Assembly: GCA_029851415.1 (NCBI GenBank)
Contig: CM056743.1
Coordinates: forward strand, 94,958,501-95,022,500
Source: Eretmocerus hayati
Lineage: Eukaryota; Arthropoda; Insecta; Hymenoptera; Aphelinidae
Length of the DNA: 64,000 nucleotides
Reading direction: 5' to 3'
Shown here: piece by piece, positions 13,918 through 42,001 of the stretch
Position numbering within the stretch: position 1 is the first letter of the stretch
How the letters are laid out: every line of letters starts with the position of its first letter
Position numbers and translations under genes: made by a program
Notes under the pieces: model-generated
Told to the model about the DNA's origin: nothing
Databases searched by the model: none
The model's input: the letters and a program-made list of their open reading frames with translations, nothing else

Positions 13918-13947
13918 AGTAGGGTAGGAGAGCGGGGGAGACGAAGT
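13918..13947 (+). repeat. Left terminal inverted repeat tip
   Basis: The tip begins AGTAGGGTAGGAGAGCGGGG and is matched by the reverse complement of the right end, with one difference in the first seven bases (AGTAGGG against AGTAGGT). Homology to the right arm continues inward without a break. Confidence 0.85.
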
Positions 13948-13969
13948 AGGTCACACCTTTTCTCACTCT

Positions 13970-14312
13970 CCCCATAAGTAAAGCATTGCGCGCGGATCCT
14001 GACGAATGCATTGCAAGTATAGGCAACTGCACTATCATGCTTTTTTCACTCATCCGCGCTCGCCTCTCATTTTTCCTCCATTGCGCGCGGATCTTGACAA
14101 TTGTATGGCAAACTGAACTCCGAGCTCGGTTCTTTACCCCCGTCCATAAGAATATCATTGCCCGCGGATCCTCACGAAATACATTGGGAGGATAGGCAAC
14201 TGCTCGTCTCCGTGCTCGGCATAACGGGATAGGCCCGCACTCATATCCATCAATAATATTTGAGGAATATCGAGCTCATATTTTTGAAAGAAGCCTCTCA
14301 CTCTTTCAGCGG

Positions 14313-14343
<31 letters not shown>

Positions 14344-14690
14344 ATTCCTCGTTCATGCTGATTGCAGTGCGGGAGTCAGGGATCAGAAGACACACTCCCA
14401 ACGTGAGATCAAATAATATTTGATGATTCAAATAATATTTCTCGCCAGCTAAGATGAGCGCGGATTCCCCACCTTCCACGCAGTGAAAAAGACGTTCTCT
14501 CATAAGTATACCATTGTGTTCGGTTCCTATTAGGAGCATTGCAGACACAGCGCATGCATGCTTTTCACCACGCATGCATGATTCCACACGTCCCCCCCTA
14601 TAAAATACATTGACTGCGGTTACTATAACGGGCTCATGCTACTCCCACTTTCCACGTAAACGAAGCATTGTCCGCGTATCCTATAACACA
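13970..14690 (+). promoter_or_regulatory. Subterminal array of a GC-rich recurrent motif (left)
   Basis: A loose consensus, CATAAG-N5-CATTG(C/T)CCGCGGATCCTATAACG, recurs at about 13973-14001, 14080-14094, 14145-14175, 14501-14533, 14598-14630 and 14656-14686. Copies also lie at 15385-15417 and 17605-17622. Many are preceded by a C/T-rich run ending TTTCC or CCCC. The right arm has the mirror set. The role is unknown. Position and iteration resemble subterminal protein-binding sites or origin iterons; repeated promoters are another possibility. Confidence 0.6.
14317..14340 (+). repeat. (CT)n microsatellite
   Basis: A simple CT run of about 24 bp. The equivalent GA run on the right arm (near 31404) is shorter. 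Confidence 0.85.
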
Positions 14691-14740
14691 TGCCCATAGA
14701 TGTGATTACATCCATACGCAAAGGGCCTAGGCATATATAC

Positions 14741-15122
14741 ATTCACACACACATATACACACACACACATACACCATTCCCCCATACATACACACAGACA
14801 CACTCTCATAAGAACACACACACACACCTTCTCACGCGAACACACACACATACACCCTCCCGTACATAAACACACACACACTCTCATAAGAACACCCCAT
14901 ACATACACACAGACACACTCTCATAAGAACACACACACACACCCTCTCACGCAAACACACACATACACCCTCCCATACATACACACACACACTCTCATAA
15001 GAACACCCCATACATACACACAGACACACTCTCATAAGAACACACACACACACACATACACCCTCCCATACATACACACACACACACACTCTCATAAGAA
15101 TACACACCCTCATACGATCACA
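14741..15122 (+). repeat. CA-rich minisatellite (left arm)
   Basis: Alternating CA runs are separated by CTCTCATAAGAACAC and CCTCCCATACATACAC segments, giving an irregular minisatellite. The apparent reading frames rich in Cys and Val on the other strand are products of the dinucleotide repeat and are not genes. Confidence 0.9.
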
Positions 15123-16023
15123 CACATCTACGTTCAACACACGTTTAACGCACGATCCACGAGCATCGCTCGTTCCAAATGATATTTTCCCAGAAAAATA
15201 ATATTTCCCCAATATTCCTCGAGACGGATATAGAACACCACATATATCCTCGCATCTTCACTCCTTTCCCTCCTCAAACAACTCTCCTCCTTCCTCACGC
15301 TTTGTCACAATGAAACACATTTAAGGGTATAGCAAGCCTCATCTGCATGATTGTCATCATGCATGGACGATTTCACGCTTTCCCGTATGAAATGCATTGC
15401 GTGTGGATCCTATAACGGTCTCTCATACAGATGCTACAACGAGTACATGGAGTTTGATAGAGCTAGCACGTATGCGTTGCTAGCTAACCCACAGCTATTG
15501 AGTACACACTCCCCCATATATTTGGCTATGGATAAAGTGCATTTCATGGTTTCCCTGCCCGCAGGACCCTATGGCTAACATGCTTTGCTGGTATATACAG
15601 GGGCCCGCCATAAGACAGACATATACATAAACACACGTTCAACGCACGATCATCGCTTGATTGAAATAATATATCTCAAAAATCATATCTCTCAAGCCGA
15701 GATAAAACTCATATAATCCATCCCATCTCCATTCCTTTCACTCTCAACCAGCCACTCTCCCCCTCTCAGACAAACCTCTTCCCCTCTCACTCGCTCCCAT
15801 GCACAATGATCCCATATACTCCCTCCCTCTCTCTCACTCTCGTTCTCGAGTCAGCTATACTCCGAGCCAGCTACCAGTCTTTTCTTCAGTCGTTTGAAAT
15901 TCCATGCCTTTCGCAAAGCTGCTTAATGATTTCTGCAAGCTGCAATTCAAGTCCGTGGCTTGAGGAGTAGCATTACTGGGAATGAGTTTCGTACACACCT
16001 ACACTGTTGTTTACCTTGAGAAA
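15123..16023 (+). other. Non-coding upstream region of gene A (left arm)
   Basis: I see no convincing gene here. It contains one copy of the GC-rich motif (15385-15417), long C/T-rich tracts (15720-15860), and a TTCAGTCG sequence near 15890 that resembles an arthropod initiator. The part from about 15940, with AAGTCCGTGGCTTGA, resembles the sequence upstream of gene B (AAGTCCGTTGCTTGA near 16684). This suggests the A and B units arose by tandem duplication that included their leaders. Confidence 0.5.
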
Positions 16024-16520
16024 ATGTTTAGACAAATTTCACTACGACTCTGTGATTATCAAGGCTTTTACTATATATGAACATACACTGTAACTATGTC
16101 TCTCTCGTTTTCACAGATCAGGAAATATCGCTCATGAAGCTTTGGTCAGCACGTTCTGAAATGAGACGCCATAACACACCACGGACCATGAGAGAGTATA
16201 TAGGATGTCTCCAAGACGTGCTCTCCGAGTTATTGAGACGAGATTCTTCAGATTTTCTAATAATATTCCAATTGATGAATCCAAACGATCAACGTGATTT
16301 AGAGCGTATGGGAGCAAGACTGTATTGTAGCTCACCCGTTGAAATTGATCGAGCAAGGTATTCAAACTTTAACGCTCACACGTACTGTATTTTTAAAGGA
16401 AAGTACTCGGAAATTTATCACATTATTCACAACTATGATATTTCAAATTTAGACTTTATACTTGAGAATCCAGCAGTGTATAATATTTCTGATTTAGGTT
16501 TCATCCCTGAGAATCCATAA
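16024..16520 (+). CDS. Gene A, left copy: spliced small protein, unknown family
   Basis: Two exons are inferred: 16024-16051 (28 nt, starting at ATG) and 16117-16520, joined in phase 1, giving 143 residues. The 65-nt intron ends in TTTTCACAG. The donor here is GTGATT, whereas the right-arm copy has the consensus GTGAGT, so splicing of this copy may be impaired. Without splicing, an ATG inside the intron (16077) could start a 147-residue variant. The protein shares a pattern with gene B: a SLM.LW.AR start, then GAR.YC.SP.EID, then a GK...IY..I.N stretch. No signal peptide or membrane segment is obvious. I do not recognise the family. Gene B lies just downstream on the same strand. Confidence 0.72.
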
Positions 16521-16891
16521 GACTCATAATTTATCTCTCTCGCTCTGGTTTGGTGTTGGCTATTACCTACTCTCATGCGCAATGGTCTCACATACCTCTC
16601 TTCTCACTCACTCTCATGCGGTATATCCCGTTCTTTGCGTGATCGTTGTCTGAAATTTAGGAAGAAGTGAGACTCTTACCTGAAGTCCGTTGCTTGATGA
16701 GCAGATACATCAAACAAGTTTTTACAATCTACCCCTGTCAATCAAGTTTCATTTTAAAACATACTCAATCACAGGCAGATATCACACAACTATTCGAAAA
16801 AATCCATCAATCTCACTCCAGTTTTCGAATTGCTCGTGTGCACATCGTTCTCTTTGGCCTCCAATATTTTTGTGAAATCATCACGAAAAAA

Positions 16892-17367
16892 ATGAACCAG
16901 CTCAACAGGAACCAACTTTGTGAGTAACAGAATTCAATTTTTATATTTCTCCACACATCCCATAGGTACTTCAACGAGCTTTTTTTCTCTCTCCTCCAGT
17001 CCAACAAGTTTCCTTAATGAACCTCTGGTGGGCAAGAATGGGAGTGAGCCGTTCGACGAATCCTCAAAACATTGCAGCATATACGGAAGCTCTGAACGTC
17101 GCGCAAACCATACTAGATCGAGGCGAGTTCATGAATTTCACAATAGTGTTTCACCCGTATAACTCCAACGACTCCACCATACTCGAAGTGGTCGGAGCAA
17201 GGAGATATTGCGACTCACCGATAGAAATCGATCTATCGAGACTATCCGATTTCCATCCTTACACTAATTTCATCTACCGAGGTAAATTTCAACAGATATA
17301 TCGCCTCATTAGGAATTTCCTTATATACGCATTGGACTTTGTTGTAGAGATTCCTACAGAGGATTGA
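16892..17367 (+). CDS. Gene B, left copy: spliced paralogue of gene A
   Basis: Exon 1 is 16892-16919 (28 nt from ATG) and exon 2 is 17000-17367, giving 131 residues. The 80-nt intron runs from GTGAGT to a pyrimidine-rich tract ending CTCCTCCAG. Intron position and phase are identical to gene A, and the spliced product aligns with A from its start (QQVSLMNLWWAR against QEISLMKLWSAR) through SPIEIDLSRLSDF and IYRGKFQQIYRLIRNF. The C-terminus is shorter than that of A. Function is unknown. Agreement between two paralogues on exon length, phase and splice sites is strong evidence that this is a real gene. Confidence 0.77.
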
Positions 17368-17848
17368 AGAGAAATTAACACCTTGAGATCGAAATTCATT
17401 CTTCTTCACCAATGGTTTCTCTCATAATTATGATGTAGATTCCGATCAATGTAAAATAGAAAGGAACATATGTGACGTTGTTATTGTGATAAATGCTTCC
17501 TCAATTCTACCAACATTCTACTTTGTCTAATTGTCCCCCCACCCCCTCCCCAACCTCCACACCGTTTCCTCCCAAGCGTTCAGTAGCTAACGAGGACACT
17601 CTTATTACCCGCGGATCCTACAGCGCTCAGATAACACATCGTCTCCTATGCATAGCGAGTATATCGCACGCGGGTCAGAGAGGGGTGGGTCCTACAAGAT
17701 ACAGACACACACACTCACATGCTTAACGCGCATTTACTACATTTAACACGTTCAACACGCGATCATGGTGCATATATTCTCTTACCTCACATAATATTTT
17801 GCTCAAATCTCGTCCGTCTTGTGTCATGCACCGATCCTATGGCATCAT
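17368..17848 (+). other. Intergenic region, left arm
   Basis: No supported gene. It includes a C-rich stretch (17536-17575), one copy of the GC-rich motif (17605-17622) and a CACACA run (17704-17716). Confidence 0.5.
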
Positions 17849-18070
17849 ATGCATGAGGATCCCCCAATCAAGGAATATTGTCAACTTTGTCAGTTTGACA
17901 ATATTGACATGTTTCGTAGCGCAACCCCACAATTTGACAAATGCAAATTCGTGAACAAAATCCATCGTATTAATCATATTCTGCTTTCTCTCATCTATGT
18001 TTCATTCCACTATCATCTTCGATCATCTCCCACAGACGATTGGTATGTGAAAATATTCAATGTGAATTGA
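17849..18070 (+). CDS. ORF M, left copy: hypothetical 73-residue protein
   Basis: It opens at ATG 17849 and ends at 18070. The translated sequence is the same in the right arm (27686-27907). It has two CxxC-like cysteines near the start (EYCQLCQFD) and a hydrophobic stretch (HILLSLIYVSFHYHL) that is too short and polar to call a membrane helix with confidence. It lies tail to tail with gene C. A perfect 11-bp inverted repeat (17874-17905) falls inside the ORF, so the start may instead lie further in or the ORF may be incidental. Confidence 0.35.
   Translation: MHEDPPIKEYCQLCQFDNIDMFRSATPQFDKCKFVNKIHRINHILLSLIYVSFHYHLRSSPTDDWYVKIFNVN
17874..17905 (+). other. Perfect 11-bp inverted repeat
   Basis: AATATTGTCAA and TTGACAATATT are separated by 10 nt. 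The mirror copy is at 27851-27882. It could form a hairpin or bind a dimeric protein. Confidence 0.6.
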
Positions 18071-18182
18071 GCTACTTGAGATTTATCGTTAGCCCGTCTT
18101 GGCTCTGTAAACGTACGTGAGGCAATGATATAAACAACATCCATTGTCGTGGAGGCAGATTTATATTCTCGCTCTAACCCAA

Positions 18183-18452
18183 TCAAGATTGTTCAATTTT
18201 GTCAACGGAAACATATCTATCATAGTATGAGTTTTTATAAAATACTTGAAACAATATTTTATCAGTTTGCTTATCGATAATCACAAATTTGCGCACATCT
18301 GGAGGATTGTTAAAACGTATGCAATAGTTCACATCATGTAGCTCTCTGAGTTTTGGATCGAGATCCATCAATGCAGTCTTCGACTCGAAAACTCTTTTCA
18401 CTCCACAATACTCTTGATACGTCACTACTCGAGGATCAAAGGGCTGATCCAT
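18183..18452 (-). CDS. Gene C, left copy: hypothetical 89-residue protein
   Basis: An intact ORF from ATG (complement of 18452-18450), preceded on the coding strand by GGGAAGA. Its translation is identical to the right-arm copy (27304-27573). The sequence has mixed charged and aromatic residues with normal protein-like composition: a DPRVVTYQEYCGVKRVFE start and a YYDRYVSVDKIEQS end. There is no signal peptide or transmembrane segment. It is divergent from gene D across a ~270-bp shared upstream region. The family is not recognised. Confidence 0.6.
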   Translation of the reverse strand: MDQPFDPRVVTYQEYCGVKRVFESKTALMDLDPKLRELHDVNYCIRFNNPPDVRKFVIIDKQTDKILFQVFYKNSYYDRYVSVDKIEQS

Positions 18453-18722
18453 TCTTCCCGTTTCTCACTTCAAACAGAATCGGATGACCTTTTTTTCTTT
18501 TTGACGATGCAGCTCTGCTGAGTTCCTTCACTCAAATGTACTATAGCGCGAGCTCGCGTAGCCAGAAGCCCTGTATGAAGATCCGAAGAGAGATGATGCG
18601 CGTAAAGATAGAGGGGCAGTAGCTGAGTAATGTCCTGTTCTGAGCTCGGGGTTATACACAGTCTCCATCAGATCGAGCTTGATAGCACACCCTGAATTCG
18701 GCAGAATCACCTGGTGGTCAAT
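18453..18722. promoter_or_regulatory. Shared upstream region of divergent genes C and D (left)
   Basis: The segment between the two start codons holds a T-rich run (18489-18501) and a 12-bp perfect palindrome CGCGAGCTCGCG near 18547, beside a CTATAG sequence. Being the only gap between divergently read ORFs, it is the natural place for a bidirectional promoter; this is inference. The right arm version carries a ~60-bp tandem duplication. Confidence 0.45.
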
Positions 18723-18995
18723 ATGGATTACGAATTATATAATTGCGTACATTTTCTCGATAGCGGTGGTACAATGCATGGCAAAGAGGGACTACAGTCA
18801 TACAAAGCACGACGATTTCCTGACGATTTCGAACTTTTACCAGGAGAGTCGAAAATCAGTGTCCATATCTATCACCAAGAAAAAGTTAGTCAGGAATGTA
18901 TCGATGACGCCTGCTTTCAATTCAACATCCTAGATCTCGAACTGTGGATCGATGATTTATACTTCTATAGTTTCAAGGAATCAAAAATATTATAA
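18723..18995 (+). CDS. Gene D, left copy: hypothetical 90-residue protein
   Basis: The ORF has its first ATG at 18723; an in-frame GTG lies 9 nt upstream. The product is acidic and aromatic, starting MDYELYNCVHFLDSGG and ending FYSFKESKIL. The right copy differs at only a few residues (T/P, L/P and D/G changes). The gene is divergent from C. No domain is recognised. The start is chosen because ATG is preferred in a eukaryote and it fits the divergent layout. Confidence 0.55.
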   Translation: MDYELYNCVHFLDSGGTMHGKEGLQSYKARRFPDDFELLPGESKISVHIYHQEKVSQECIDDACFQFNILDLELWIDDLYFYSFKESKIL

Positions 18996-19011
18996 CGTTT
19001 GCTGAAATTCG

Positions 19012-19194
19012 ATGATTGAGGATGTTGAAGCATACTGTGCAAGGAGAATGGAGCGAAAGTACGAATTTCTGTGTGAGTTATCGGGCACAGTCTCTGAGTT
19101 CAAGTGCGGAAAGAGTGGTATGGGTGGAATAGAGATTTTTGACCCCATCAAATCATCAAAATATCAAATATTCTTGGAGCCAATGATTGGATGA
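19012..19194 (+). CDS. ORF E: possible exon, 60 residues (left arm only in full)
   Basis: It opens with ATG 19012 shortly after gene D and has a charged, protein-like sequence (MIEDVEAYCARRMERKYEFL). A consensus donor GTGAGT follows that segment at 19072, so the true gene may be a 61-nt first exon spliced onward, as in genes A and B; I could not find a convincing partner acceptor. The right arm keeps only the first part (near 26560-26690), where the ~690-bp block is missing. Confidence 0.3.
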   Translation: MIEDVEAYCARRMERKYEFLCELSGTVSEFKCGKSGMGGIEIFDPIKSSKYQIFLEPMIG

Positions 19195-19835
19195 CAAGTA
19201 ATGACAAAAATTTTAATCCTTGTACTGCAGAGTGAGATATCTAAATACGCAGATAGAAGAATATCAAATTCGATGCATCCATCATCCTTATCTTGGTTCG
19301 ATATACAGACGTCTGAATAAGATGAGAGAGACATGTCTTGCAACAGTTCAAAATTTTCCACATTTTAACTTTCACCCACTCATCAGCTCAATGCGTGGGG
19401 AATTTAAAATAGGTGCGAGCCCCACAGTCATTTCTCTACAAAAGCAAGAACGAATTTTCAAAGAGAAAATATTTTGAATATTCGCGGGTCGCCTCGAGCG
19501 TTTCATGCTTCAAGTAGAAAGTAGCATACTCAACGAGACTATCGACCCTGTCATGCCTACAATTTTAAAGCTCGCAAGTGACCGACAAGGTTTCAGACTC
19601 TGGAAAAAAGAAAGGAAGAAGCATGGTAAAGAGTGGGGAGATGAATGGTGCTGTACGGTATCACAGTCCATGATAAAAGTCCCGATACGCGTTATAGAGA
19701 CGTCGTTTTAAGGACTCATATGCTAAGCGGGGAAGAGTATATCCTCATTCCTGGATGGTGTTCATTGGTCGAGCGCTACTTTTATCGTTGGTACTGCTCC
19801 AACACGTTCAAATACTGCCACCATTTTATTTGATT
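19145..19835 (+). other. ~690-bp block present only in the left arm
   Basis: The left arm has this block between CCCCATCAA and TATATGCTAG, while the right arm joins the same flanks directly (near 26547). The block contains open, protein-like stretches in the plus direction: 19220-19477 (rich in Arg, Ile and Tyr), 19511-19711 (with WKKERKKHGKEWGDEW) and 19645-19833 (with RYRDVVLRTHMLSGEEYIL). They overlap in different frames and probably are exons or remnants of one gene. No family is assigned. Confidence 0.5.
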
Positions 19836-19863
19836 ATATGCTAGTTATTAGACATGAAATTGA

Positions 19864-20076
19864 TCAGATGAGACAATCTTCTGTTACCGATTGTGGGAAG
19901 GAAAAAATTTGATCTTTGATACTCATGGCTCTCGCAGAGCCGTCTAGCAAAGCGGAGTGGACAATTTCCGTGCCAAACATGACGATAAGTTGGACTCCTA
20001 TACACCGTGAATTTTTCAAAAACTGATTATATTTCTCACTGATTTTCTCCCGTACAATCTGTAGGATGATCCTCAC
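19864..20076 (-). CDS. ORF F, left copy: possible exon, up to 70 residues
   Basis: Open on the minus strand with no ATG near its start; an in-frame stop lies just upstream of the first GTG. A CCTACAG acceptor-like sequence follows, so this is likely a 3' exon beginning near 20055. The right copy (26301-26513) stays open, with a few replacements (H/N, K/Q, S/P). The sequence is protein-like (EKISEKYNQFLKNSRC). Function is unknown. Confidence 0.33.
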   Translation of the reverse strand: MRIILQIVREKISEKYNQFLKNSRCIGVQLIVMFGTEIVHSALLDGSARAMSIKDQIFSFPQSVTEDCLI

Positions 20077-20699
20077 CTAACTGATGAGTGTTTGAATGAT
20101 GATATTCTCAAGCTATGAAATAACTAATTACCTCAACATAATGAAATCACAGTGATGATCCATCACCAGAGCGATCAGATCAGTCTTGGGTAAGATCGGG
20201 GAAATTTTCCACTGAAAACGTATTAAGAAGCACTTTTCCTGAGAGACTTCGATTTTATATCAAGCTCATTATGCAAAAAATACACATGTTCATCAACAGT
20301 CTACTAATTTACGGTGAGTTACACATCAAGTCGAAGAGTTGAGATTACATATGAGAGATCCTACAGAACTTTTGACATTGTGCGTACTCCACGCTGTCTC
20401 TGAACCTTCAAATGATTGTCAAGTTGTCGAAATTGAATTTGATGAGTTCCAAGGCCTCTGAATCTGACTCTAATCAATGTTTTGTCCAAAGAAACTGACT
20501 ATGCACAGCACGGTCAGCAACTCTCATCTTTCTGACTATCTCTCAGCATACTAACGCCATTTTTCTGATTTCTCAGGCCTGCTGCGAAAATAACATTGCT
20601 CGAAAAATTCTGTCAAAATTCAGCGACCATCTAGACACCGTATATTTTGAGAAAGTATTGGCTTCAGTCACGTGCCCTTGAGGTGGCAGTCATGAATTA
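20077..20699 (+). other. Possible multi-exon region, unresolved (left arm)
   Basis: Several splice-like signals lie here on the plus strand: donors CTTGG/GTAAGA near 20190 and TTTACG/GTGAGT near 20314, and an acceptor TGATTTCTCAG at 20566-20576. The last is followed by an open 34-codon stretch ending at 20681 (ACCENNIARKILSKFSDHL). I could not join them in one frame with confidence. A stretch at 20354-20460 (MRDPTELLTL) resembles part of ORF I (MRGSTGLLTF) on the opposite strand at 21570. Confidence 0.3.
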
Positions 20700-21136
20700 A
20701 TGTCGAAGTCGCGTAACCGAGTTTTCACGAAAAATAGACATCTCTCGGATTCAACTTTTGAAAAAAGTAACATCTACGATAAGCACATGTTCAAAACGGA
20801 TTTCGATAGTTTGAAACAACACCATTCATATCCCGTTTGGTTTAGGTGCGTGCGACCAACTGCGTTGAAACGACAGCTCCAAGAAGATGGGTGAGTTCAT
20901 GCACCCACTCCACTGAGGGAGCTCAAATCCTCATGGCATGGGAATGGGAAGGGGGGTGCGCTCCTGAAATATTACCCCCATTTCTCTTCATCTCATTATA
21001 AACGATATTCCACAGTTTTTTGGGTCCTGACATTGAACGTTATTCGAATGAGAATCATTACAAAAATTCCATCGATGGAAGCATATGTGATCAAGATCAT
21101 GGGTGCGCTCCTATGACATTGCAATCGTTTATATAA
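20700..21136 (+). CDS. Gene G, left copy: spliced 103-residue protein
   Basis: Exon 1 is 20700-20890 and exon 2 is 21016-21136, joined in phase 2. The 125-nt intron starts GTGAGTTC and ends TTCCACAG. Without splicing the frame stops at once (TGA overlaps the donor); with splicing it continues for 40 residues of protein-like sequence to TAA. The N-terminus is basic and polar (MSKSRNRVFTKNRHLSDS), the C-terminal part acidic with two cysteines (DGSICDQDHGCAP). The right copy (25241-25677) keeps the same splice sites, with one His/Tyr change. No known domain, signal peptide or membrane segment. Confidence 0.62.
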
Positions 21137-21461
21137 AACTCGAGAACAGTTATTAATACACTGAAAAACCAATTCCTCTCCCATGAGTGTCACTATAGAC
21201 TCGATTTAGGAATTTTGTAGTGAAGGATGGGGACGCTAAACGACAAATAGGTGGAACTCGAGCACTCCCATTCATCCAATATGGTGAGAAAAAAGAAAAC
21301 TAGTGGAATGCAATGTGTATCTGTGTTTCAAGTAGCTTTTGAGTGATGTGAGTGTGTAGATTGGGATCCAATCAGACGTGCTCAATGGACCTCAGACGGC
21401 TTATCATGGTCTCCTCAATTACATTAATAACATCCTACCAAACCCTTGGGCACGTATATTT
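21137..21461. other. Intergenic, left arm
   Basis: I see no supported gene, RNA or repeat in this stretch. The short open frames on either strand lack convincing starts. Confidence 0.4.
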
Positions 21462-21689
21462 TTACTCATTTAGAGGTCCTACTAACCAGCAAAATTGTCT
21501 CCTGACGCGTGTCATAAGAAAAAAAATTTCACTCTCCAGCAGTTCAAATGTTAAAAGTCCTGTAGAACCTCTCATATACGCGCAGATTACAGTAATATGA
21601 AGGCTATCATTTGTGGGTGCGATGAATTTTCGACAGGTAGTGAATGCACGTACAACGGCGCAGGGATGAAAGAGGTACTCATCATCCAT
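21462..21689 (-). CDS. ORF I, left copy: hypothetical 75-residue protein
   Basis: It starts at an ATG (MDDEYLFHPCAVVRAFTT) and is identical in translation in the right arm (24688-24915). It contains four cysteines and a hydrophobic C-terminal half. A segment ICAYMRGSTGLLTF resembles LRLHMRDPTELLTL encoded on the other strand near 20345, suggesting an internal duplication. Function is unknown. Confidence 0.42.
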   Translation of the reverse strand: MDDEYLFHPCAVVRAFTTCRKFIAPTNDSLHITVICAYMRGSTGLLTFELLESEIFFLMTRVRRQFCWLVGPLNE

Positions 21690-21866
21690 GTTCAGTTATT
21701 TAGACAACGTATCTAACTGGTGGGAGTGATGTACTTGAATCCTTCCATGCAACAGTGGGGCAGCAAATTACCAAAGATGATGCGTCGATAGTGTCACCAG
21801 TCCACTCTCAATTCGTTCCTTCCATCTACACATGGTACATAACACCCTCAAGTTGTTCGGGTCGTA

Positions 21867-22163
21867 ATGATAACAAGCGGGGCACACCAAATCTACCCAC
21901 TCAATGTCGATGGGTACCTATTCGAGACTAAGCATAGGTGTTGCCCCCAACTACTCCTGTTATCCGATATCAATAGATATGTTTTTCACTTTTTTCAATC
22001 ACGCTTTTTGTGTTCGACATTTCTTCGGTAAAGTGTGAAGATGAAGTTGGTTTGTGTTGTGACCGCAGACCCAAAAGGATTGTACATGGGTATTATCTCA
22101 CAAACTTAAACGGAACGTCTCATGACCTTGCATCTCGACGAGCGAGGTCGAAACCACTCGATT
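21867..22163 (+). pseudogene. ORF J, left copy: frameshifted
   Basis: This matches the intact right-arm ORF (24217-24510) from the start ATG through the GAHQIYPLNVDGYLFETK region. It then carries a T-run expansion near 21985-21995 (about 5 bp longer than the right copy) that shifts the frame to a stop at 22030. The rest of the homologous sequence continues to 22163. So one arm keeps a complete ORF and the other does not. Confidence 0.55.
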
Positions 22164-22858
22164 GAAAATTCCCTACACGTATTGTATTAAAATACACTTG
22201 GCTAAAGTTACAGCTCGACCCATCAACGCGTTTCTTTCATTTTCAAGGATGAAGGATCAAAATGTGAGGTTCGTGGACTGTTACACCCGCAGTGAGGCAG
22301 ATATTCGCAGCGCCAGAGTCGAATTAATCATCGCAGTAGGTATTCTCGATTCTCCCATCAAAATACACCATCAAACTGACCAAGATGTTCAGATTAGACC
22401 CTGAACCATGCAAATCTTTTCTGTTACGGGTTTTTTCACCAAAAATGTGACATTCAATGAATGTTAGTAGCATACTAGAAAGCTCCGTTTCGAACAAAAT
22501 TGGAAGGGAACATGTCAAATAATCAAAGGCCAGCGTGAGTGAGGGTCAAGAACCGAAATTACAAGAACTGCACAAACATCTATGTCCAAAAACGAGGCAT
22601 GCCATTAATTTCATTGGTTTTGTGAGCACCATTTCCTTCAACTGGAAATAAATTTATCTGGTCAGAAATGAATTTTTTCACCCAGTGCCCGATGGAAAAT
22701 AGATGACGTCACCATCATTATTTTTATGAGCGATTCTAGAGGCAAATGTCAGTTCTGTTCATGTCAGCTCCATGCACTCATGATCCGTTTCCTGGGATGT
22801 CCATGAGGCTAATGCACATGGTGAAAATTCATACTTTTACATACGTTTTTGAGATTAT
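22164..22858. other. Inner left arm, no supported gene
   Basis: Overlapping open frames lie on both strands at 22162-22404 (plus) and 22324-22518 (minus). Neither has an ATG start, and the plus-strand frame differs between arms by three replacements. I would not call a gene here. The stretch 22520-22858 holds nothing I recognise. Confidence 0.4.
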
Positions 22859-23523: not shown

Positions 23524-24216
23524 ATAATCTCAAAAACGTATGTAAAAGTATGAATTTTCACCATGTGCATTAGCCCTATGGACATCCCAGGAAACGGATC
23601 ATGAGTGCATGGAGCTGACATGAACAGAACTGACATTTGCCTCTTGAATCGCTCATAAAAATAATGATGGTGACGTCATTTATTTTCCATCGGGCACTGG
23701 GTGAAGAAATTCATTTCTGACCAGATGAATTTATTTCCAGTTAAAGGAAATGGTGCTCACAAAACCAATGAAATTAATGGCATGCCTCGTTTTTGGACAT
23801 AGATGTTTGTGCAGTTCTTGTAATTTCGGTTCTTGACCCTCACTCACGCTGGCCTTTGATTATTTGACATGTTCCCTTCCAATTTTGTTCGAAACGGAGC
23901 TTTCTAGTATGCTACTAACATTCATTGAATGTCACATTTTTGGTGAAAAAACCCGTAACAGAAAAGATTTGCATGGTTCAGGGTCTAATCTGAACATCTT
24001 GGTCAGTTTGATGGTGTATTTTGATGGGAGAATCGAGAATACCTACTGCGATGATTAATTCGACTCTGGCGCTGCGAATATCTGCCTCACTGCGGGTGTA
24101 ACAGTCCACGAACCCCACATTTTGATCCTTCATCCTTGAAAATGGAAGAAACGCGTTGACGGGTCGAGCTGTAACTTTAGCCAAGTGTATTTTAATACAA
24201 TACGTGTAGGGAATTT
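23524..24216. other. Inner right arm, no supported gene
   Basis: Mirror of 22164-22858. It contains the same ATG-less overlapping frames (23864-24058 plus; 23978-24220 minus) and nothing else I can support. Confidence 0.4.
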
Positions 24217-24510
24217 TCAATCGAGTGATTTCGACCTCGCTCGTCGAGATGCAAGGTCATAACACGTTCCGTTTAAGTTTGTGAGATAATACCCATGTAC
24301 AATCCTTTTGGGTCTGCGGTCACAACACAAACCAACTTCATCTTCACACTTTACCAAAGAAATGTCGAACACAAAAAGCGTGATTGCGTGAAAAACATAT
24401 CTATTGATATCGAATAACAGGAGTAGTTGGGGGCAAGACCTAAGCTTAGTCTCGAATAGGTACCCATCGACATTCAGTGGGTAGATTTGGTGTGCCCCGC
24501 TTGTTATCAT
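24217..24510 (-). CDS. ORF J, right copy: hypothetical 97-residue protein
   Basis: Intact from ATG (complement of 24510-24508) to TGA. The sequence begins MITSGAHQIYPLNVDGYLF, has a hydrophobic middle (LLLLFDINRYVFHAITLF), then a cysteine pair (GLCCDRR) and a basic end. The left-arm counterpart is frameshifted. Retention here but not on the left fits a gene for which one copy is enough, or simply chance. Family unknown. Confidence 0.42.
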   Translation of the reverse strand: MITSGAHQIYPLNVDGYLFETKLRSCPQLLLLFDINRYVFHAITLFVFDISLVKCEDEVGLCCDRRPKRIVHGYYLTNLNGTCYDLASRRARSKSLD

Positions 24511-24687
24511 TACGACCCGAACAACTTGAGGGTGTTATGTACCATGTGTAGAGTGAGGGAACGAATTGAGAGTGGACTGGTGACACTATCGACGCATCAT
24601 CTTTGGTAATTTGCTGCCCCACTGTTGCATGGAAGGATTCAAGTACATCACTCCCACCAGTTAGATACGTTGTCTAAATAACTGAAC

Positions 24688-24915
24688 ATGGATGATGAGT
24701 ACCTCTTTCATCCCTGCGCCGTTGTACGTGCATTTACTACCTGTCGAAAATTCATCGCACCCACAAATGATAGCCTTCATATTACTGTAATCTGCGCGTA
24801 TATGAGAGGTTCTACAGGACTTTTAACATTTGAACTGCTGGAGAGTGAAATTTTTTTCCTTATGACACGCGTCAGGAGACAATTTTGCTGGTTAGTAGGA
24901 CCTCTAAATGAGTAA
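24688..24915 (+). CDS. ORF I, right copy: hypothetical 75-residue protein
   Basis: Starts at ATG 24688. The translation is identical to the left-arm copy. It is divergent from ORF J, with about 180 bp between their starts, so the two may share a promoter region. Function unknown. Confidence 0.42.
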   Translation: MDDEYLFHPCAVVRAFTTCRKFIAPTNDSLHITVICAYMRGSTGLLTFELLESEIFFLMTRVRRQFCWLVGPLNE

Positions 24916-25240
24916 AAATATACGTGCCCAAGGGTTTGGTAGGATGTTATTAATGTAATTGAGGAGACCATGATAAGCCGTCTGAGGTCCATTGAGCACG
25001 TCTGATTGGATCCCAATCTACACACTCACATCACTCAAAAGCTACTTGAAACACAGATACACATTGCATTCCACTAGTTTTCTTTTTTCTCACCATATTG
25101 GATGAATGGGAGTACTCGAGTTCCACCTATTTGTCGTTTAGCGTCCCCATCCTTCACTACAAAATTCCTAAATCGAGTCTATAGTGACACTCATGGGAGA
25201 GAAATTGGTTTTTCAGTGTATTAATAACTGTTCTCGAGTT
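24916..25240. other. Intergenic, right arm
   Basis: Mirror of 21137-21461. No supported gene. Confidence 0.4.
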
Positions 25241-25677
25241 TTATATAAACGATTGCAATGTCATAGGAGCGCACCCATAATCTTGATCACATATGCTTCC
25301 ATCGATGGAATTTTTGTGATGATTCTCATTCGAATAACGTTCAATGTCAGGACCCAAAAAACTGTGGAATATCGTTTATAATGAGATGAAGAGAAATGGG
25401 GGTAATATTTCAGGAGCGCACCCCCCTTCCCATTCCCATGCCATGAGGATTTGAGCTCCCTCAGTGGAGTGGGTGCATGAACTCACCCATCTTCTTGGAG
25501 CTGTCGTTTCAACGCAGTTGGTCGCACGCACCTAAACCAAACGGGATATGAATGGTGTTGTTTCAAACTATCGAAATCCGTTTTGAACATGTGCTTATCG
25601 TAGATGTTACTTTTTTCAAAAGTTGAATCCGAGAGATGTCTATTTTTCGTGAAAACTCGGTTACGCGACTTCGACAT
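25241..25677 (-). CDS. Gene G, right copy: spliced 103-residue protein
   Basis: Exon 1 is 25487-25677 and exon 2 is 25241-25361, with a 125-nt intron bearing the same GTGAGT donor and CACAG acceptor as the left copy. The product differs from the left at one visible residue (Tyr for His in the DQDHG motif). Conservation of both splice sites and an open second exon supports a functional gene. No family recognised. Confidence 0.62.
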
Positions 25678-26300
25678 TAATTCATGACTGCCACCTCAAG
25701 GGCACGTGACTGAAGCCAATGCTTTCTCAAAATATACGGTGTCTAGATGGTCGCTGGATTTTGACAGAATTTTTCGAGCAATGTTATTTCCGCAGCAGGC
25801 TTGAGGAATCAGGAAAATGGCGTTAGTATGCTGAGAGATAGTCAGAAAGATGAGAGTTGCTGACCGTGCTGCGCATAGTCAGTTTCTTTGGACAAAACAT
25901 TGATTATAGTCAGATTCAGAGGCCTTGGAACTCATCAAATCCAATTTCGACAACTTGACAATCATTTGAAGGTTCAGAGACAGCGTGGAGTACGCACAAT
26001 GTCAAAAGTTCTGTAGGATCTCTCATATGTAATCTCAAATCTTCGACTTGATGTGTAACTCACCGTAAATTAGTAGACTGTTGATGAACATGTGTATTTT
26101 TTGCATAATGAGCTTGATATAAAATCGAAGTCTCTCAGGAAAAGTGCTTCTTAATACGTTTTCAGTGGAAAATTTCCCCGATCTTACCCAAGACTGATCT
26201 GATCGCTCTGGTGATGGATCATCACTGTGATTTCATTATGTTGAGGTAATTAGTTATTTCATAGCTTGAGAATATCATCATTCAAACACTCATCAGTTAG
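25678..26300 (-). other. Possible multi-exon region, unresolved (right arm)
   Basis: Mirror of 20077-20699, with the same candidate donors. The acceptor before the 34-codon open stretch is changed: the minus strand reads CCTCAAG where the left has TTCTCAG, so this copy would splice less well if the exon is real. Confidence 0.3.
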
Positions 26301-26513
26301 GTGAGGATCATCCTACAGATTGTACGGGAGAAAATCAGTGAAAAATATAATCAGTTTTTGAAAAATTCACGGTGTATAGGAGTCCAACTTATCGTCATGT
26401 TTGGCACGGAAATTGTCAACTCCGCTTTGCTAGACGGCTCTGCGAGAGCCATGAGTATCCAAGATCAAATTTTTCCCTTCCCACAATCGGTAACAGAAGA
26501 TTGTCTCATCTGA
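26301..26513 (+). CDS. ORF F, right copy: possible exon
   Basis: Open like the left copy and likewise without an upstream ATG in frame. It differs by a few replacements and keeps the same stop. It probably begins after an acceptor-like CCTACAG near 26320. Function unknown. Confidence 0.33.
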   Translation: MRIILQIVREKISEKYNQFLKNSRCIGVQLIVMFGTEIVNSALLDGSARAMSIQDQIFPFPQSVTEDCLI

Positions 26514-26700
26514 TCAATTTCATGTCTAATAACTAGCATATAATTGATGGGAGTCGAAAATCTCTATTCCACCCGTACCACTCTTTCCGCACTTGAACTC
26601 AGAGACTGTGCTCGATAACTCACACAGAAATTCGTACTTTCGCTCCATTCTCCTTGCACAGTATGCTTCAATATCCTCAATCATCGAATTTCAGCAAACG

Positions 26701-26973
26701 TTATAATATTTTTGATTCTTTGAAACTATAGAAGTATAAACCATCGATCCACGGTTCGAGATCTAGGATGTTGAATTGAAAGCAGGCGTCATCGATACAT
26801 TCCTGACTAACTTTTTCTTGGTGATAGATATGGACACTGATTTTCGACTCTCCTGGTAAAAGTTCGAAATCGTCAGGAAATCGTCGTGCTTTGTATGACT
26901 GTAGTCCCTCTTTGCCATGCATTGGACCACCGCTATCGAGAAAATGTACGCAATTATATAATTCGTAATCCAT
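26701..26973 (-). CDS. Gene D, right copy: hypothetical 90-residue protein
   Basis: Same start and length as the left copy, with a few amino-acid changes (Pro for Thr near residue 17; Pro for Leu and Gly for Asp near the end). It is divergent from gene C across a longer spacer that includes a ~60-bp duplication. Confidence 0.55.
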   Translation of the reverse strand: MDYELYNCVHFLDSGGPMHGKEGLQSYKARRFPDDFELLPGESKISVHIYHQEKVSQECIDDACFQFNILDLEPWIDGLYFYSFKESKIL

Positions 26974-27118
26974 ATTGACCACCAGGTGATTCTGCCGAAT
27001 TCAGGGTGTGCTATCAAGCTCGATCTGATGGAGACTGTGTATAATCCCGAGCTCAGAACAGGACATTACTCAGCTACTGCCCCTCTATCTTTACGCGCAT
27101 CATCTCTCTTCGGATCTT

Positions 27119-27180
27119 TATACAGGGGCCATCGTTAGCGGCCCCTCTCTTTACGCGCACCATCTCTCTTTGGATCTCCA
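27119..27180 (+). repeat. ~60-bp tandem duplication in the C/D upstream region
   Basis: The segment TTTACGCGCA(T/C)CATCTCTCTT(C/T)GGATCT occurs twice here but once in the left arm. The inserted part includes a short hairpin GGCC...GGCC. This is an arm-specific change in the presumed promoter region. Confidence 0.6.
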
Positions 27181-27303
27181 TACAGGGCTTCTGGCTACGC
27201 GAGCTCGCGCTATAGTACAGTTGAGTGAAGAAACTCAGCAGAGCTGCATCGTCAAAAAGAAAAAAAGGTCATCCGATTCTGTTTGAAGTGAGAAACGGGA
27301 AGA

Positions 27304-27573
27304 ATGGATCAGCCCTTTGATCCTCGAGTAGTGACGTATCAAGAGTATTGTGGAGTGAAAAGAGTTTTCGAGTCGAAGACTGCATTGATGGATCTCGATC
27401 CAAAACTCAGAGAGCTACATGATGTGAACTATTGCATACGTTTTAACAATCCTCCAGATGTGCGCAAATTTGTGATTATCGATAAGCAAACTGATAAAAT
27501 ATTGTTTCAAGTATTTTATAAAAACTCATACTATGATAGATATGTTTCCGTTGACAAAATTGAACAATCTTGA
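27304..27573 (+). CDS. Gene C, right copy: hypothetical 89-residue protein
   Basis: The protein is identical to the left copy. Start ATG 27304 follows GGGAAGA. It lies tail to tail with ORF M. Function unknown. Confidence 0.6.
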   Translation: MDQPFDPRVVTYQEYCGVKRVFESKTALMDLDPKLRELHDVNYCIRFNNPPDVRKFVIIDKQTDKILFQVFYKNSYYDRYVSVDKIEQS

Positions 27574-27685
27574 TTGGGTTAGAGCGAGAATATAAATCTG
27601 CCTCCACGACAATGGATGTTGTTTATATCATTGCCTCACGTACGTTTACAGAGCCGAGACGGGCTAACGATAAATCTCAAGTAGC

Positions 27686-27907
27686 TCAATTCACATTGAA
27701 TATTTTCACATACCAATCGTCTGTGGGAGATGATCGAAGATGATAGTGGAATGAAACATAGATGAGAGAAAGCAGAATATGATTAATACGATGGATTTTG
27801 TTCACGAATTTGCATTTGTCAAATTGTGGGGTTGCGCTACGAAACATGTCAATATTGTCAAACTGACAAAGTTGACAATATTCCTTGATTGGGGGATCCT
27901 CATGCAT
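27686..27907 (-). CDS. ORF M, right copy: hypothetical 73-residue protein
   Basis: Mirror of 17849-18070 with identical translation, including the EYCQLCQFD segment and the inverted repeat (27851-27882) inside it. Coding status is uncertain for the reasons given for the left copy. Confidence 0.35.
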   Translation of the reverse strand: MHEDPPIKEYCQLCQFDNIDMFRSATPQFDKCKFVNKIHRINHILLSLIYVSFHYHLRSSPTDDWYVKIFNVN

Positions 27908-28388
27908 ATGATGCCATAGGATCGGTGCATGACACAAGACGGACGAGATTTGAGCAAAATATTATGTGAGGTAAGAGAATATATGCACCATGATCACGTG
28001 TTGAACGTGTTAAATGTAGTAAATGCGCGTTAAGCATGTGAGTGTGTGTGTCTGTATCTTGTAGGACCAACCCCTCTCTGACCCGCGTGCGATATACTCG
28101 CTATGCATAGGAGACGATGTGTTATCTGAGCGCTGTAGGATCCGCGGGTAATAAGAGTGTCCTCGTTAGCTACTGAACGCTTGGGAGGAAACGGTGTGGA
28201 GGTTGGGGAGGGGGTGGGGGGACAATTAGACAAAGTAGAATGTTGGTAGAATTGAAGAAGCATTTATCACAATAACAACGTCACATATGTTCCTTCCTAT
28301 TTTACATTGATCGGAATCTACATCATAATTATGAGAGAAACCATTGGTGAAGAAGAATGAATTTCGATCTCAAGGTGTTAATTTCTCT
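27908..28388. other. Intergenic region, right arm
   Basis: Mirror of the left intergenic region. It holds a G-rich stretch (28196-28222), a copy of the GC-rich motif (28136-28157) and a short TG run. Confidence 0.5.
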
Positions 28389-28865
28389 TCAATCCTCTGT
28401 AGGAATCTCTACAACAAAGTCCAATGCGTATATAAGGAAATTCCTAATGAGGCGATATATCTGTTGAAATTTACCTCGGTAGATGAAATTAGTGTAAGGA
28501 TGGAAATCAGATAGTCTCGATAGATCGATTTCTATCGGTGAGTCGCAATATCTCCTTGCTCCGACCACTTCGAGTATGGTGGAGTCGTTGGAGTTATACG
28601 GGTGAAACACTATTGTGAAATTCATGAACTCGCCTCGATCTGGTATGGTTTGCGCGACGTTCAGAGCTTCCGTATATGCTGCAATGTTTTGAGGATTCGT
28701 CGAACGGCTCACTCCCATTCTTACCCACCAGAGGTTCATTAAGGAAACTTGTTGGACTGGAGGAGAGAGAAAAAAAAGCTCGTTGAAGTACGTATGAAAT
28801 GTGTGGAGAAATATAAAAATTGAATTCTGTTACTCACAAAGTTGGTTCCTGTTGAGCTGGTTCAT
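28389..28865 (-). CDS. Gene B, right copy: spliced paralogue of gene A
   Basis: Exon 1 is 28838-28865 (28 nt) and exon 2 is 28389-28756, separated by an 81-nt intron with GTGAGT and CTCCAG ends. It encodes 131 residues. There are two visible amino-acid differences from the left copy (Val for Ala in WWARM; Pro for Leu in TILDRG). Same relation to gene A as on the left. Confidence 0.77.
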
Positions 28866-29236
28866 TTTTTTCGGGATGATTTCACAAAAATATTGGAGGC
28901 CGAAGAGAACGATGTGCACACGAGCAATTCGAAAACTGGAGTGAGATTGATGGATTTTTTCGAATAGTTGTGTGATATCTGCCTGTGATTGAGTATGTTT
29001 TAAAATGAAACTTGATTGACAGGGGTAGATTGTAAAAACTTGTTTGATGTATCTGCTCATCAAGCAACGGACTTCAGGTAAGAGTCTCACTTCTTCCTAA
29101 ATTTCAGACAACGATCACGCAAAGAACGGGATATACCGCATGAGAGTGAGTGAGAAGAGAGGTATGTGAGACCATTGCGCATGAGAGTAGGTAATAGCCA
29201 ACACCAAACCAGAGCGAGAGAGATAAATTATGAGTC

Positions 29237-29733
29237 TTATGGATTCTCAGGGATGAAACCTAAATCAGAAATATTATACACTGCTGGATTCTCAAGTATA
29301 AAGTCTAAATTTGAAATATCATAGTTGTGAATAATGTGATAAATTTCCGAGTACTTTCCTTTAAAAATACAGTACGTGTGAGCGTTAAAGTTTGAATACC
29401 TTGCTCGATCAATTTCAACGGGTGAGCTACAATACAGTCTTGCTCCCATACGCTCTAAATCACGTTGATCGTTTGGATTCATCAATTGGAATATTATTAG
29501 AAAATCTGAAGAATCTCGTCTCAATAACTCGGAGAGCACGTCTTGGAGACATCCTATATACTCTCTCATGGTCCGTGGTGTGTTATGGCGTCTCATTTCA
29601 GAACGTGCTGACCAAAGCTTCATGAGCGATATTTCCTGATCTGTGAAAACGAGAGAGACATAGTTACAGTGTATGTTCATATATAGTAAAAGCCTTGATA
29701 CTCACAGGGTCGTAGTGAAATTTGTCTAAACAT
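29237..29733 (-). CDS. Gene A, right copy: spliced small protein, unknown family
   Basis: Exon 1 is 29706-29733 (28 nt) and exon 2 is 29237-29640; the 65-nt intron has a consensus GTGAGT donor and TTTTCACAG acceptor. The 143-residue product keeps the conserved pattern shared with gene B. The second exon is identical in translation to the left arm. The single exon-1 change is Pro for Leu at residue 9. This copy has the better donor and is the more likely to be expressed correctly. Confidence 0.75.
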
Positions 29734-30629
29734 TTTCTCAAGGTAAACAACAGTGTAGGTGTGTACGAAACTCATTCACAGTGATGCTACTCCTCAAGCC
29801 ACGGACTTGAATTGCAGCTTGCAGAAATCATTAAGCAGCTTTGCGAAAGGCATGAAATTTCAAACGACTGAAGAAAAGACTGGTAGCTGGCTCGGAGTAT
29901 AGCTGACTCGAGAACGAGAGTGAGAGAGAGGAAGGGAGTATATGGGATCATTGTGCATGGGAGCGAGTGAGAGAGGAAGAGGTTTGTCTGAGAGGGAGAG
30001 AGTGGCTGGTTGAGAGTGAAAGGAATGGAGATGGGATGGATTATATGAGTTTTATCTTGGCTTGAGAAATATGATTTTTGAGATATATTATTTCAATCAA
30101 GCGATGATCGTGCGTTGAACGTGTGTTTATGTATATGTCTGTCTCATGGCGGGCCCCTGTATATACCAGCAAAGCATGTTAGCCATAGGGTCCTGCGGGC
30201 AGGGAAACCATGAAACGCATTTTATCCATAGCCAAATATATGGAGGAGTGTGTACTCAATAGCTGTGGGTTAGCTAGCAACGCATACGTGCTAGCTCTAT
30301 CAAACTGCATGTACTCGTTATAGCATCTGTATGAGAGACCGTTATAGGATCCTCACGCAATGCATTTCATACGGGAAAGCGTGAAATCGTCCATGCATGA
30401 TGACAATCATGCAGATGAGGCTTGCTATGCCCTTAAATGTGTTTCATTGTGACAGAGCGTGAGGAAGGGGGAGAGTTGTTTGAGGAGGGAAAGGAGTGAA
30501 GATGCGAGGATATATGTGGAGTTTTATACCCGTCTCGAGGAATATTGGGGAAATATTATTCTTCTGGAAAAATATTATTTGGAACGAGCGATGCTCGTGG
30601 ATCGTGCGTTAAACGTGTGTTGAACGTAG
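29734..30629 (-). other. Non-coding upstream region of gene A (right arm)
   Basis: Mirror of 15123-16023: purine-rich tracts (29915-30030), an initiator-like sequence on the minus strand near 29865, and one GC-rich motif (30342-30378). No gene seen. Confidence 0.5.
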
Positions 30630-31023
30630 ATGTGTGCGTTCGTATGACGGTGTGTGTTCTTATGAGAGTGTGTGTGTGTATGTATGGGAGGGTGTATGTG
30701 TGTGTGTGTTTTTATGAGAGTGTGTCTGTGTGTATGTATGGGGTGTTCTTATGAGAGTGTGTGTGTGTATGTATGGGAGGGTGTATGTGTGTGTGTCCGC
30801 GTGAGAGGGTGTGTATGTGTGTGTGTGTGTTCTTATGAGAGTGTGTCTGTGTGTATGTATGGGGTGTTCTTATGAGAGTGTGTGTGTGTGTGTGTATGTA
30901 TGGGAGGGTGTATGTGTGTGTGTTCGCGTGAGAGGGTGTGTGTGTGTGTTCTTATGAGAGTGTGTCTGTGTGTATGTATGGGGGGTTGGTGTATGTGTGT
31001 GTGTATATGTGTGTGTGAATGTA
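30630..31023 (-). repeat. TG-rich minisatellite (right arm)
   Basis: Mirror of the CA minisatellite, with a different number and order of internal units, so the two arrays have changed independently since the arms formed. Confidence 0.9.
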
Positions 31024-31059
31024 TATATGCCTAGGCCCTTTGCGTATGGATGTAATATC

Positions 31060-31765
31060 ACATCTATGGGCATGTGTTAATAGGATACGCGGACAATGCT
31101 TTGTTTACGTGAAAAGTGCGAGAAGCATGAGCCCGTTATAGTAACCGCAGTCAATGTATGTCATAGGGGGGACGTGTGAAATCATGCATGCGTGGTGAAA
31201 AGCATGCATGCGCTGTGTCAGCAATGCTCCTAATAGGAACCGAACACAATGGTATACTTATGAGAGAACGTCTTTTTCACTGCGTGGAAGGTGGGAAATC
31301 CGCGCTCATCTTAGCTAGCGAGAAATATTATTTGATCTCAAATTGGGTGTGTGTCTTCTGATCCCTGACTCCCGCGCTGCAATCAGCATGAACGAGGAAT
31401 CATCGAGAGAGAGAGAGAGCAGCTGAAAGAGTGAGAGGCTTCTTTTAAAAATATGAGCTCGATATTCCTCAAATATTATTGATGGATATGTGTGCGGGCC
31501 CATCCCGTGATGCCGAGCACGGAGACGAGCAGTTGACTATCCTCCCAATGTATTCCGTGAGGATCCGCGGGCAATGATATTCTTATGGACGGGAGTGAAG
31601 AACCGAGCTCGGAGTTCAGTTTGCCATACAATTGTCAAGATCCGCGCGCAACGGGGGGAAAATGACAGGCGAGCGCGGATGAGTGAAAGAAGCATGATAG
31701 TGCAGTTGCCTATGCTTGCAATGCATTCATCAGGATCCGCGCGCAATGCTTTTCTTATGGGGAAA
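31060..31765 (-). promoter_or_regulatory. Subterminal array of a GC-rich recurrent motif (right)
   Basis: Mirror copies of the left array occur at about 31081-31110, 31560-31586, 31636-31651 and 31732-31760, each reading AGGATCCGCG(G/C)GCAATG or close. Position next to the terminus is conserved in both arms. Confidence 0.6.
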
Positions 31766-31785
31766 AGTGAGAAAAGGTGTGACCT

Positions 31786-31815
31786 ACTTCGTCTCCCCCG
31801 CTCTCCTAACCTACT
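31786..31815 (-). repeat. Right terminal inverted repeat tip
   Basis: Ends CTCTCCTAACCTACT, the reverse complement of the left tip apart from one base. Confidence 0.85.
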
Positions 31816-41999: not shown

Positions 42000-42001
42000 A
42001 A

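Follow-up and report, generated by a model that had tools for sequence, protein, structure and literature searches.

A near-perfect palindrome in Eretmocerus hayati that looks like a doubled, non-autonomous Maverick derivative

What kind of mobile element is almost entirely its own inverted repeat, and how could its two halves stay alike? The question is raised by a near-perfect palindrome at positions 13918-31815 of a 64,000-nucleotide stretch of the Eretmocerus hayati genome (contig CM056743.1, positions 94,958,501 to 95,022,500; hereafter the window, meaning the whole stretch), sited within satellite DNA. An earlier interpretation made from the letters alone, here called the sequence-only reading, could place the element in no standard transposon class. 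As far as sequence comparison goes, its ends and 6-bp target-site duplication, together with a terminal repeat and a gene that it has in common with resident Mavericks, fit the Maverick/Polinton class; the all-inverted-repeat form of the element is itself unusual. At a probability of roughly 0.7, we read the palindrome as a non-autonomous Maverick satellite, replicated by snap-back with the aid of helpers, whose arms are made equal again before insertion. The data support the Maverick ancestry of its ends and gene, several insertions of the family, the equality of arms at insertion, the presence of one host segment in both arms of three sister copies, and the recurrence of the form.

Aligning the arms bore out the two inverted halves of about 9 kb and the precise ends that had been described, AGTAGGG at the left and CCTACT at the right (AGTAGGT when read inward from the right end). 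The hexamer ATCGAC stands on both sides of the element, and an uninterrupted paralogous copy of the satellite at about 35440-35600 reads ...CACATCGGCCAATCTGAGG..., so that the claim of a duplication that is single in uninterrupted satellite holds, with one mismatch (ATCGGC) in the single copy. The flanking satellite, with a unit of 384 bp, runs in the same orientation on both sides of the palindrome, and the flanks are not mirrored. Between the arms there are 53 differences over 1170 aligned columns (4.5%) in the terminal stretch (13918-15129) and 103 over 7344 columns (1.4%) in the inner stretch (15130-23160), along with 15 indel runs, the largest being 681 nt carried by the left arm only. 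The dispersed repeat that occupies 20348-21578 recurs on each of the four large contigs, for the most part at 77-83% identity (best 40 of 1018 candidates). Rfam gave no match in the window.

A search of the insect's own genome (692 Mb, 17 contigs) with gene A, one of two spliced genes in each arm, returned 18 places, and ten loci besides the window copy (W) were read, in separate stretches. Inverted pairs are present at six of the ten (c1_79, c4_44, c1_81, c2_95, c2_85, c2_100), and the other four (c1_87, c1_88, c3_69, c4_73) are one-armed or disrupted. All five palindromes with both ends read, the window's included, start with AGTAGG and are flanked by perfect 6-bp duplications, each of them different; both ends were not established for c2_85, c2_100, c1_87, c1_88, c3_69 and c4_73. 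Further copies with identical ends and differing duplications, which the sequence-only reading had proposed to search for, are thus found, and these five copies, the target duplication and the empty paralogous site support its view that the palindrome was inserted as a unit. Gene A copies lie at C1 79-89 Mb, C2 86-100 Mb, C3 70-95 Mb and C4 45-74 Mb, towards the midpoint of each large contig, and may be pericentromeric. A polydnavirus segment, considered on account of the small spliced genes, was ruled out by the ends and target duplications.

These loci also bear on two simpler accounts. Fold-back reads are reportedly a known artefact and the evidence here is assembled sequence, so the palindrome might have been made in the assembly; a fold-back read would mirror its flanks, whereas here the satellite runs in one direction on both sides, 6-bp duplications are present at five loci, the arms carry private differences and copies lie on all four large contigs, which makes such an origin extremely unlikely. 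It is also very improbable that the structure consists of two oppositely oriented Mavericks or Maverick fragments, or is a foldback-type Mutator element: large inverted-repeat DNA transposons of the latter type are known, in the parts of the literature available to us, whereas a single 6-bp duplication surrounds the whole element, the outer ends are the same, a short central loop is conserved, and the terminal repeat and gene have Maverick homology. A one-time inversion or two nested insertions are rejected on the same duplication, ends and loop. The target duplication of Foldback/Mutator elements is 9 bp; these elements, as described in those parts of the literature, are likewise mostly inverted repeat and differ in duplication length, ends and genes.

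The terminal repeat gave at least 73 matches in the genome (best 40 of 90 candidates), which were paired by eye from the matches listed. Among these are at least nine inverted pairs of Maverick size, 20.5-23.7 kb apart; a tenth pair, at C3:94.14-94.17 Mb, also holds one homologue of genes A and B and was excluded as too long, its repeats being separated by 32.8 kb. Reading in separate stretches covered almost all of one Maverick, C4:69282151-69302640; two others were read over part of one end. The first has the same ends as the palindromes, a terminal inverted repeat (TIR) of 634 bp (97.5%) and the duplication TAGGTC, and the window's terminal repeat matches its TIRs at 90-91% identity along 346 nt and at 88-91% along 138-139 nt. 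It encodes an rve integrase (6e-14), a double-jelly-roll capsid protein (5.6e-99) and an A32-type ATPase (1.4e-6), and it carries a single A/B homologue at 44-51% identity; Pfam found no protease in its stretch L037, which also holds a fragment of a ribonucleotide reductase small subunit (L037:2259-2774). A further place, C4:69774500-69778500, is 94.9% identical to this Maverick over 3.5 kb, and its TIR agrees at 95-97% with the one in palindrome c4_44.

A genome search with protein B returned 79 matches, with all 141 of 141 candidates scored. In nine of the nine Maverick-sized pairs among the matches listed there is exactly one A/B homologue, near one end, and a homologue is present in both arms of all seven two-armed palindromes, a count that is not independent because the palindromes were located through gene A. 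Since the gene occurs once, at one Maverick end, and in both arms of palindromes with the same ends, the palindromes look like non-autonomous derivatives of Mavericks in which one end has been doubled. The 6-bp duplications (5/5) and the terminal inverted repeats with AGT-type ends are Maverick features, vertebrate Mavericks being described with ends (AG)3 and (AGT)2 and 6-bp duplications in the portion of the source available to us (PMC8097293). As in a non-autonomous derivative, termini and sequence are held in common with an autonomous-type resident relative, at several insertion sites. Possible helpers are plentiful, since the capsid family gave at least 126 scored matches among 909 candidates; many of these are open frames of about 410-460 amino acids (aa) with no stop, and the genome apparently carries a heavy Maverick load.

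How alike the two arms are was followed across the family. In four young copies the main arm blocks are highly alike between left (L) and right (R), with identities of 99.61-99.79% in c1_79, 99.81% in c4_44, 99.5-99.7% in c1_81 and 98.96-99.80% in c2_95. A tree of 17 arms, made from an outer 3-kb piece with c4_73 excluded and c1_87, c1_88 and c3_69 entered as single arms, firmly pairs the L and R arms of one copy in five of seven cases (W, c1_79, c1_81, c2_85, c2_100); those of c4_44 are weakly joined (90/83, with a zero-length branch) and those of c2_95 are not joined. Over the 1457 columns readable in 14 arms of seven copies, 140 vary while the two arms of each copy agree, 157 hold changes private to a single arm and 38 are other variable columns, 30 of which are arm differences in one copy at positions where copies vary too. 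The sharpest pattern comes from the sister trio c4_44, c1_81 and c2_95, aligned over 7734 columns after the outer ends and centre had been trimmed: all 55 informative sites agree between both arms of each copy, 41 sites are private to one arm, one is three-state, and none is shared by single arms across copies. Among the 15 possible arm pairings, the true one alone is free of conflict, the next best having nine. The within-copy agreement in the trio therefore supports arms that were equal when inserted, a statement that rests on these site patterns and the arm tree. Old copies have diverged arms (4.4% in c2_85, 6.1% in c2_100), suggesting that arms drift apart after insertion. One parental end at both termini, with arms equal at birth, is also what marks a symmetric defective genome.

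The hinge between the arms is short and recurrent. Under a criterion of 15 matches, the centre left unpaired measures 54 nt in every member of the trio, 105 nt in the window copy (self-alignment gives 51 nt) and, depending on the axis chosen, 65 or 147 nt in c1_79. The 125 nt leading up to the window axis recur at 97-99% identity in c1_87, c1_81, c2_95 and c4_44, with a partial match of 93% in c1_79. None of 200 shuffled sequences folds as well as the centre, but the folded piece includes arm sequence, which pairs by construction. In c1_79 the old centre lies within both arms and the axis has moved (C1:79182492 region, L009/L010), and our reading is that the element later folded again about a different hinge. 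Nested repeated centres were seen in c1_87 (stretch L021:5300-6000).

Some arms contain host DNA. Besides the six arms of the trio, their inner arm (L011:6000-9900) matches one place in the genome at 98%, C2:46613539-46617492 on the minus strand, in two adjoining blocks, and there are thirteen further matches, partial and at 66-73%. Reading of the flanks widened the segment to C2:46613241-46617554 (4.3 kb), which each of the three sisters carries in its two arms. The homology ends abruptly on both sides (breakpoints read in c4_44), and the flanks of the host locus, about 0.5 and 0.7 kb as read, do not match the element. The ends of the segment are absent from the window copy (both ends) and from c1_79 (inner end tested); from this and the single genomic place we infer that capture ran from host to element.

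A second Maverick subfamily has taken a related form. Two opposite-facing capsid genes at C3:121.8 Mb led to an inverted-arm element, C3:121792618-121809219, with ends AGTAGTGG, the duplication GTAGTT, and arms whose identity, in the 3.6 kb read, is 99.97% along 2964 bp and 100% along 680 bp of end sequence. Its 3-kb piece is also inverted-paired at C1:10.92-10.94 and C3:129.31-129.32 Mb, and single at no fewer than four near-identical places (best 40 of 420 candidates in both cases). The C1:10.92-10.94 and C3:121.8 elements have 685 nt of centre in common; the ends were read for C3:121792618-121809219 only. A more complex centre was noted in C3:129307204-129320686. It is therefore probable that forms with one end doubled originated in no fewer than two Maverick subfamilies.

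New folding thus seems to recur, given these inverted arms and the relocated centre of c1_79, and each palindrome might be a one-off fold-back error of a complete Maverick that never reproduces as a palindrome. We consider this quite improbable, since three copies with different target duplications have the same centre and host segment in collinear arms, the inner arm is common to W, c2_85 and c2_100, and the centre is common to W, c4_44, c1_81, c2_95 and c1_87. Under the non-autonomous satellite reading, founding would have consisted of the doubling of one Maverick end (terminal repeat plus A/B genes) head-to-head around a short loop, a product that the comparison supports, with the other Maverick end and the core genes replaced in the process. 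Resident Mavericks would copy and integrate the palindrome in trans, the shared terminal repeat being what their protein-primed polymerase and integrase would recognise. As replication proceeds by strand displacement, the strand set free could form a 9-kb hairpin with the centre of about 50 nt as its closing loop. In that hairpin, arm mismatches would be repaired, or else the whole of the next molecule would be templated by one arm. Each new copy would then integrate with two equal arms, an equality that the site patterns support, and the arms would diverge afterwards. Equalisation in a hairpin would cause a change or host fragment in one arm to appear in both descendant arms. The fuller proposal, of a palindromic Maverick-satellite lineage that reproduces as a giant hairpin, proofreads or re-templates its arms in each cycle, and fixes any captured host fragment in both arms and spreads it genome-wide, stands in our judgement at even odds.

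Several observations weigh against this reading. Scans of portions of the palindromes brought up neither polymerase nor integrase, and mobilisation in trans was not observed in this sequence comparison. The candidate polymerase open reading frame (ORF) of Maverick C4:69282151-69302640 (stretch L038) has no match in Pfam, NCBIfam or PDB and is unconfirmed. Beyond the TIR, the DNA of that Maverick is not alignable to the window arm, the A/B protein being the only further likeness, and for this reason the immediate parent was not found. The C3:121.8 element is not a complete palindrome, its 1-kb centre reading as non-palindromic, so that long inverted arms alone are claimed for it. At the level of the arms, the blocks spanning the centre in the trio are only 96.4-98.0% identical, the trio's indel runs give mixed patterns (partly from trimmed ends and simple repeats), and at 8 of the 1457 outer-piece columns the arms differ in two or more copies. 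In the window copy, the ends are three times as diverged as the middle and one arm stretch of 798 bp is identical, a length reached in a fraction of 0.001 of 2000 shuffles; the hairpin model accounts for neither feature.

The latter two features would suit gene conversion, which could equalise arms after insertion: the palindrome would transpose as an ordinary unit and its arms would be made alike later, in the chromosome, where long palindromes are reportedly known to convert. We judge this unlikely. The old copies c2_85 and c2_100 keep their diverged arms, and the trio has 55 changes shared by both arms and 41 private to one, whereas slow conversion would leave crossing patterns.

The gene content of the arms is smaller than first thought. 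The sequence-only reading counted about ten small genes per arm; two clear spliced genes (A and B) and two plausible ORFs (D and E) remain, and the rest of the arm has no recognisable coding. A and B are paralogues with 40% aa identity and the same two-exon structure, both present in each arm. The donor GT of gene A exon 1 is kept in 16 of 17 aligned arm copies (GG in c2_85_L); gene B exon 1 is readable in 15 of 17, with GT in 13 of these and GC in both c2_85 arms. With one arm taken per copy, exon 2 is open in six of eight copies for A and six of seven readable copies for B. Pairwise dN/dS, from non-independent pairs, ranges over 0.11-0.96 for A (28 pairs), 0.14-2.32 for B (21 pairs, one above 1) and 0 to 1.18 for D (10 pairs, one undefined), which we take as a sign that A and B are weakly constrained, while for D it allows no firm reading. 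No relative was found for protein B in a database search or for protein A among viral contigs, and neither matched a Pfam family. A PHROG search gave weak matches only. An ankyrin-like PDB match (best E 0.00045) was set aside, its matches being mostly synthetic repeat proteins and the structure model poor (mean predicted local distance difference test scores, pLDDT, are 55.6 for B and 57.0 for D).

Pfam scans covered the six frames of 17401-23192 and the plus-strand frames of 15120-17401, with X at stops, and elsewhere in the left arm ORFs of at least 45 aa (65 ORFs in all). Six matches among the 65 ORFs, with E of 0.0043-0.045, are at chance level. No rve integrase, protein-primed B-family polymerase, capsid protein, packaging ATPase or protease, all of them Maverick proteins, and no Mutator transposase were matched in these scans.

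Table 1. Coordinates of the palindrome and its features in the window, of further copies, and of related elements.
Feature	Location	Strand	Remark
Left arm	13918..23165	+	self-alignment of window
Right arm	23217..31815	-	without 681 nt that the left arm has
Left target-site duplication ATCGAC	13912..13917	.	sequence
Right target-site duplication ATCGAC	31816..31821	.	sequence
Terminal repeat, left copy	13918..14327	+	starts AGTAGGG; resembles Maverick C4:69282151-69302640 TIRs
Terminal repeat, right copy	31405..31815	-	95% identical to left copy
CA-rich minisatellite within arm	14740..15126	.	
Gene A exon 1, 28 nt, predicted	16024..16051	+	
Gene A exon 2	16117..16520	+	no difference between the two arms of the window copy
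Gene B exon 1, 28 nt, predicted	16892..16919	+	
Gene B exon 2	17000..17367	+	paralogue of A
ORF D, 89 aa, plausible gene	18183..18452	-	
ORF E, 90 aa, plausible gene	18723..18995	+	
Stretch holding 681 nt of left-arm-only sequence	19147..19832	.	
Dispersed genomic repeat copy, 1.23 kb	20348..21578	.	mirror position has it too
Central spacer (loop), non-palindromic	23166..23216	.	centre conserved in other copies
Gene B exon 2, right arm	28389..28756	-	28389-28739 is ORF from first in-frame ATG; remainder by mirror position
Gene A ORF, right arm	29237..29680	-	
Uninterrupted paralogous satellite copy (empty-site comparison)	35440..35600	+	
Palindrome c1_79	C1:79173117-79191798		both ends read; duplication AACAAC
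Palindrome c4_44	C4:44821299-44840155		both ends read; duplication AAGGGT
Palindrome c2_95	C2:95489594-95508416		both ends read; duplication GTGACC
Palindrome c1_81	C1:81368219-81392088		both ends read; duplication GTCAGG; longer, foreign sequence towards left end
Inverted-arm Mavericks, other subfamily	C3:121792618-121809219; C1:10924756-10939561; C3:129307204-129320686		open capsid match per arm

Other repeats share the window with the palindrome. A Ty3-type long terminal repeat retrotransposon at 39136-56483 has direct repeats of 2864 bp that are 99.76% identical, and its ORFs encode a gag with a zinc knuckle, a protease-reverse transcriptase-RNaseH-integrase polyprotein, and a third product of 844 aa with no Pfam family. 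It splits another satellite, whose units measure about 635 bp (37839-39136 and 56483-59520), and a third satellite, of 164-bp period, lies at 61836-63983.

Among known systems, the Maverick/Polinton (polintovirus) class agrees with the palindrome in its 6-bp duplication, AGT-type ends and long terminal repeats, and terminal repeat and A/B gene are shared; the palindrome differs in being nearly all inverted repeat, with no core gene found and one end doubled, in having arms that were equal at insertion, and in carrying host DNA in some arms. Adenovirus 12-cell symmetric recombinants (SYREC) and other symmetric defective adenovirus genomes reportedly have one viral end at both palindrome termini, and SYREC is said to combine cellular DNA in both arms with protein-primed helper replication; symmetric adenovirus-cell recombinants have reportedly been explained by a similar mechanism, for which the literature searched gave no confirmation. 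The palindromes described here differ from SYREC in lying within chromosomes between target duplications, in having multiple copies, and in spreading the way a transposon does. Adeno-associated virus, a parvovirus with single-stranded DNA, offers another parallel. Its snap-back genomes are self-complementary subgenomic satellites according to the portion of the source available to us (PMC8235507), and these forms, as described there, are self-complementary like the palindrome and, unlike it, are not integrating transposons.

The replication of Mavericks has been deduced mainly from their gene content. Their particles had not been observed so far, according to the available portion of one account (PMC8097293). 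In the literature searched, by title and start of abstract and mostly in non-subscription sources, there is no report of palindromic or foldback Mavericks, and the elements described here would make up a class of defective Maverick satellite without earlier report in that literature. If the hairpin lineage is real, it would be a DNA transposon with built-in concerted evolution. Its arm-equal palindromic copies would be a fossil record of a replication intermediate, so that protein-primed, hairpin-forming replication of Mavericks becomes directly testable, and it would give virus-like transposons a route for copying kilobase pieces of host chromosome to new sites.

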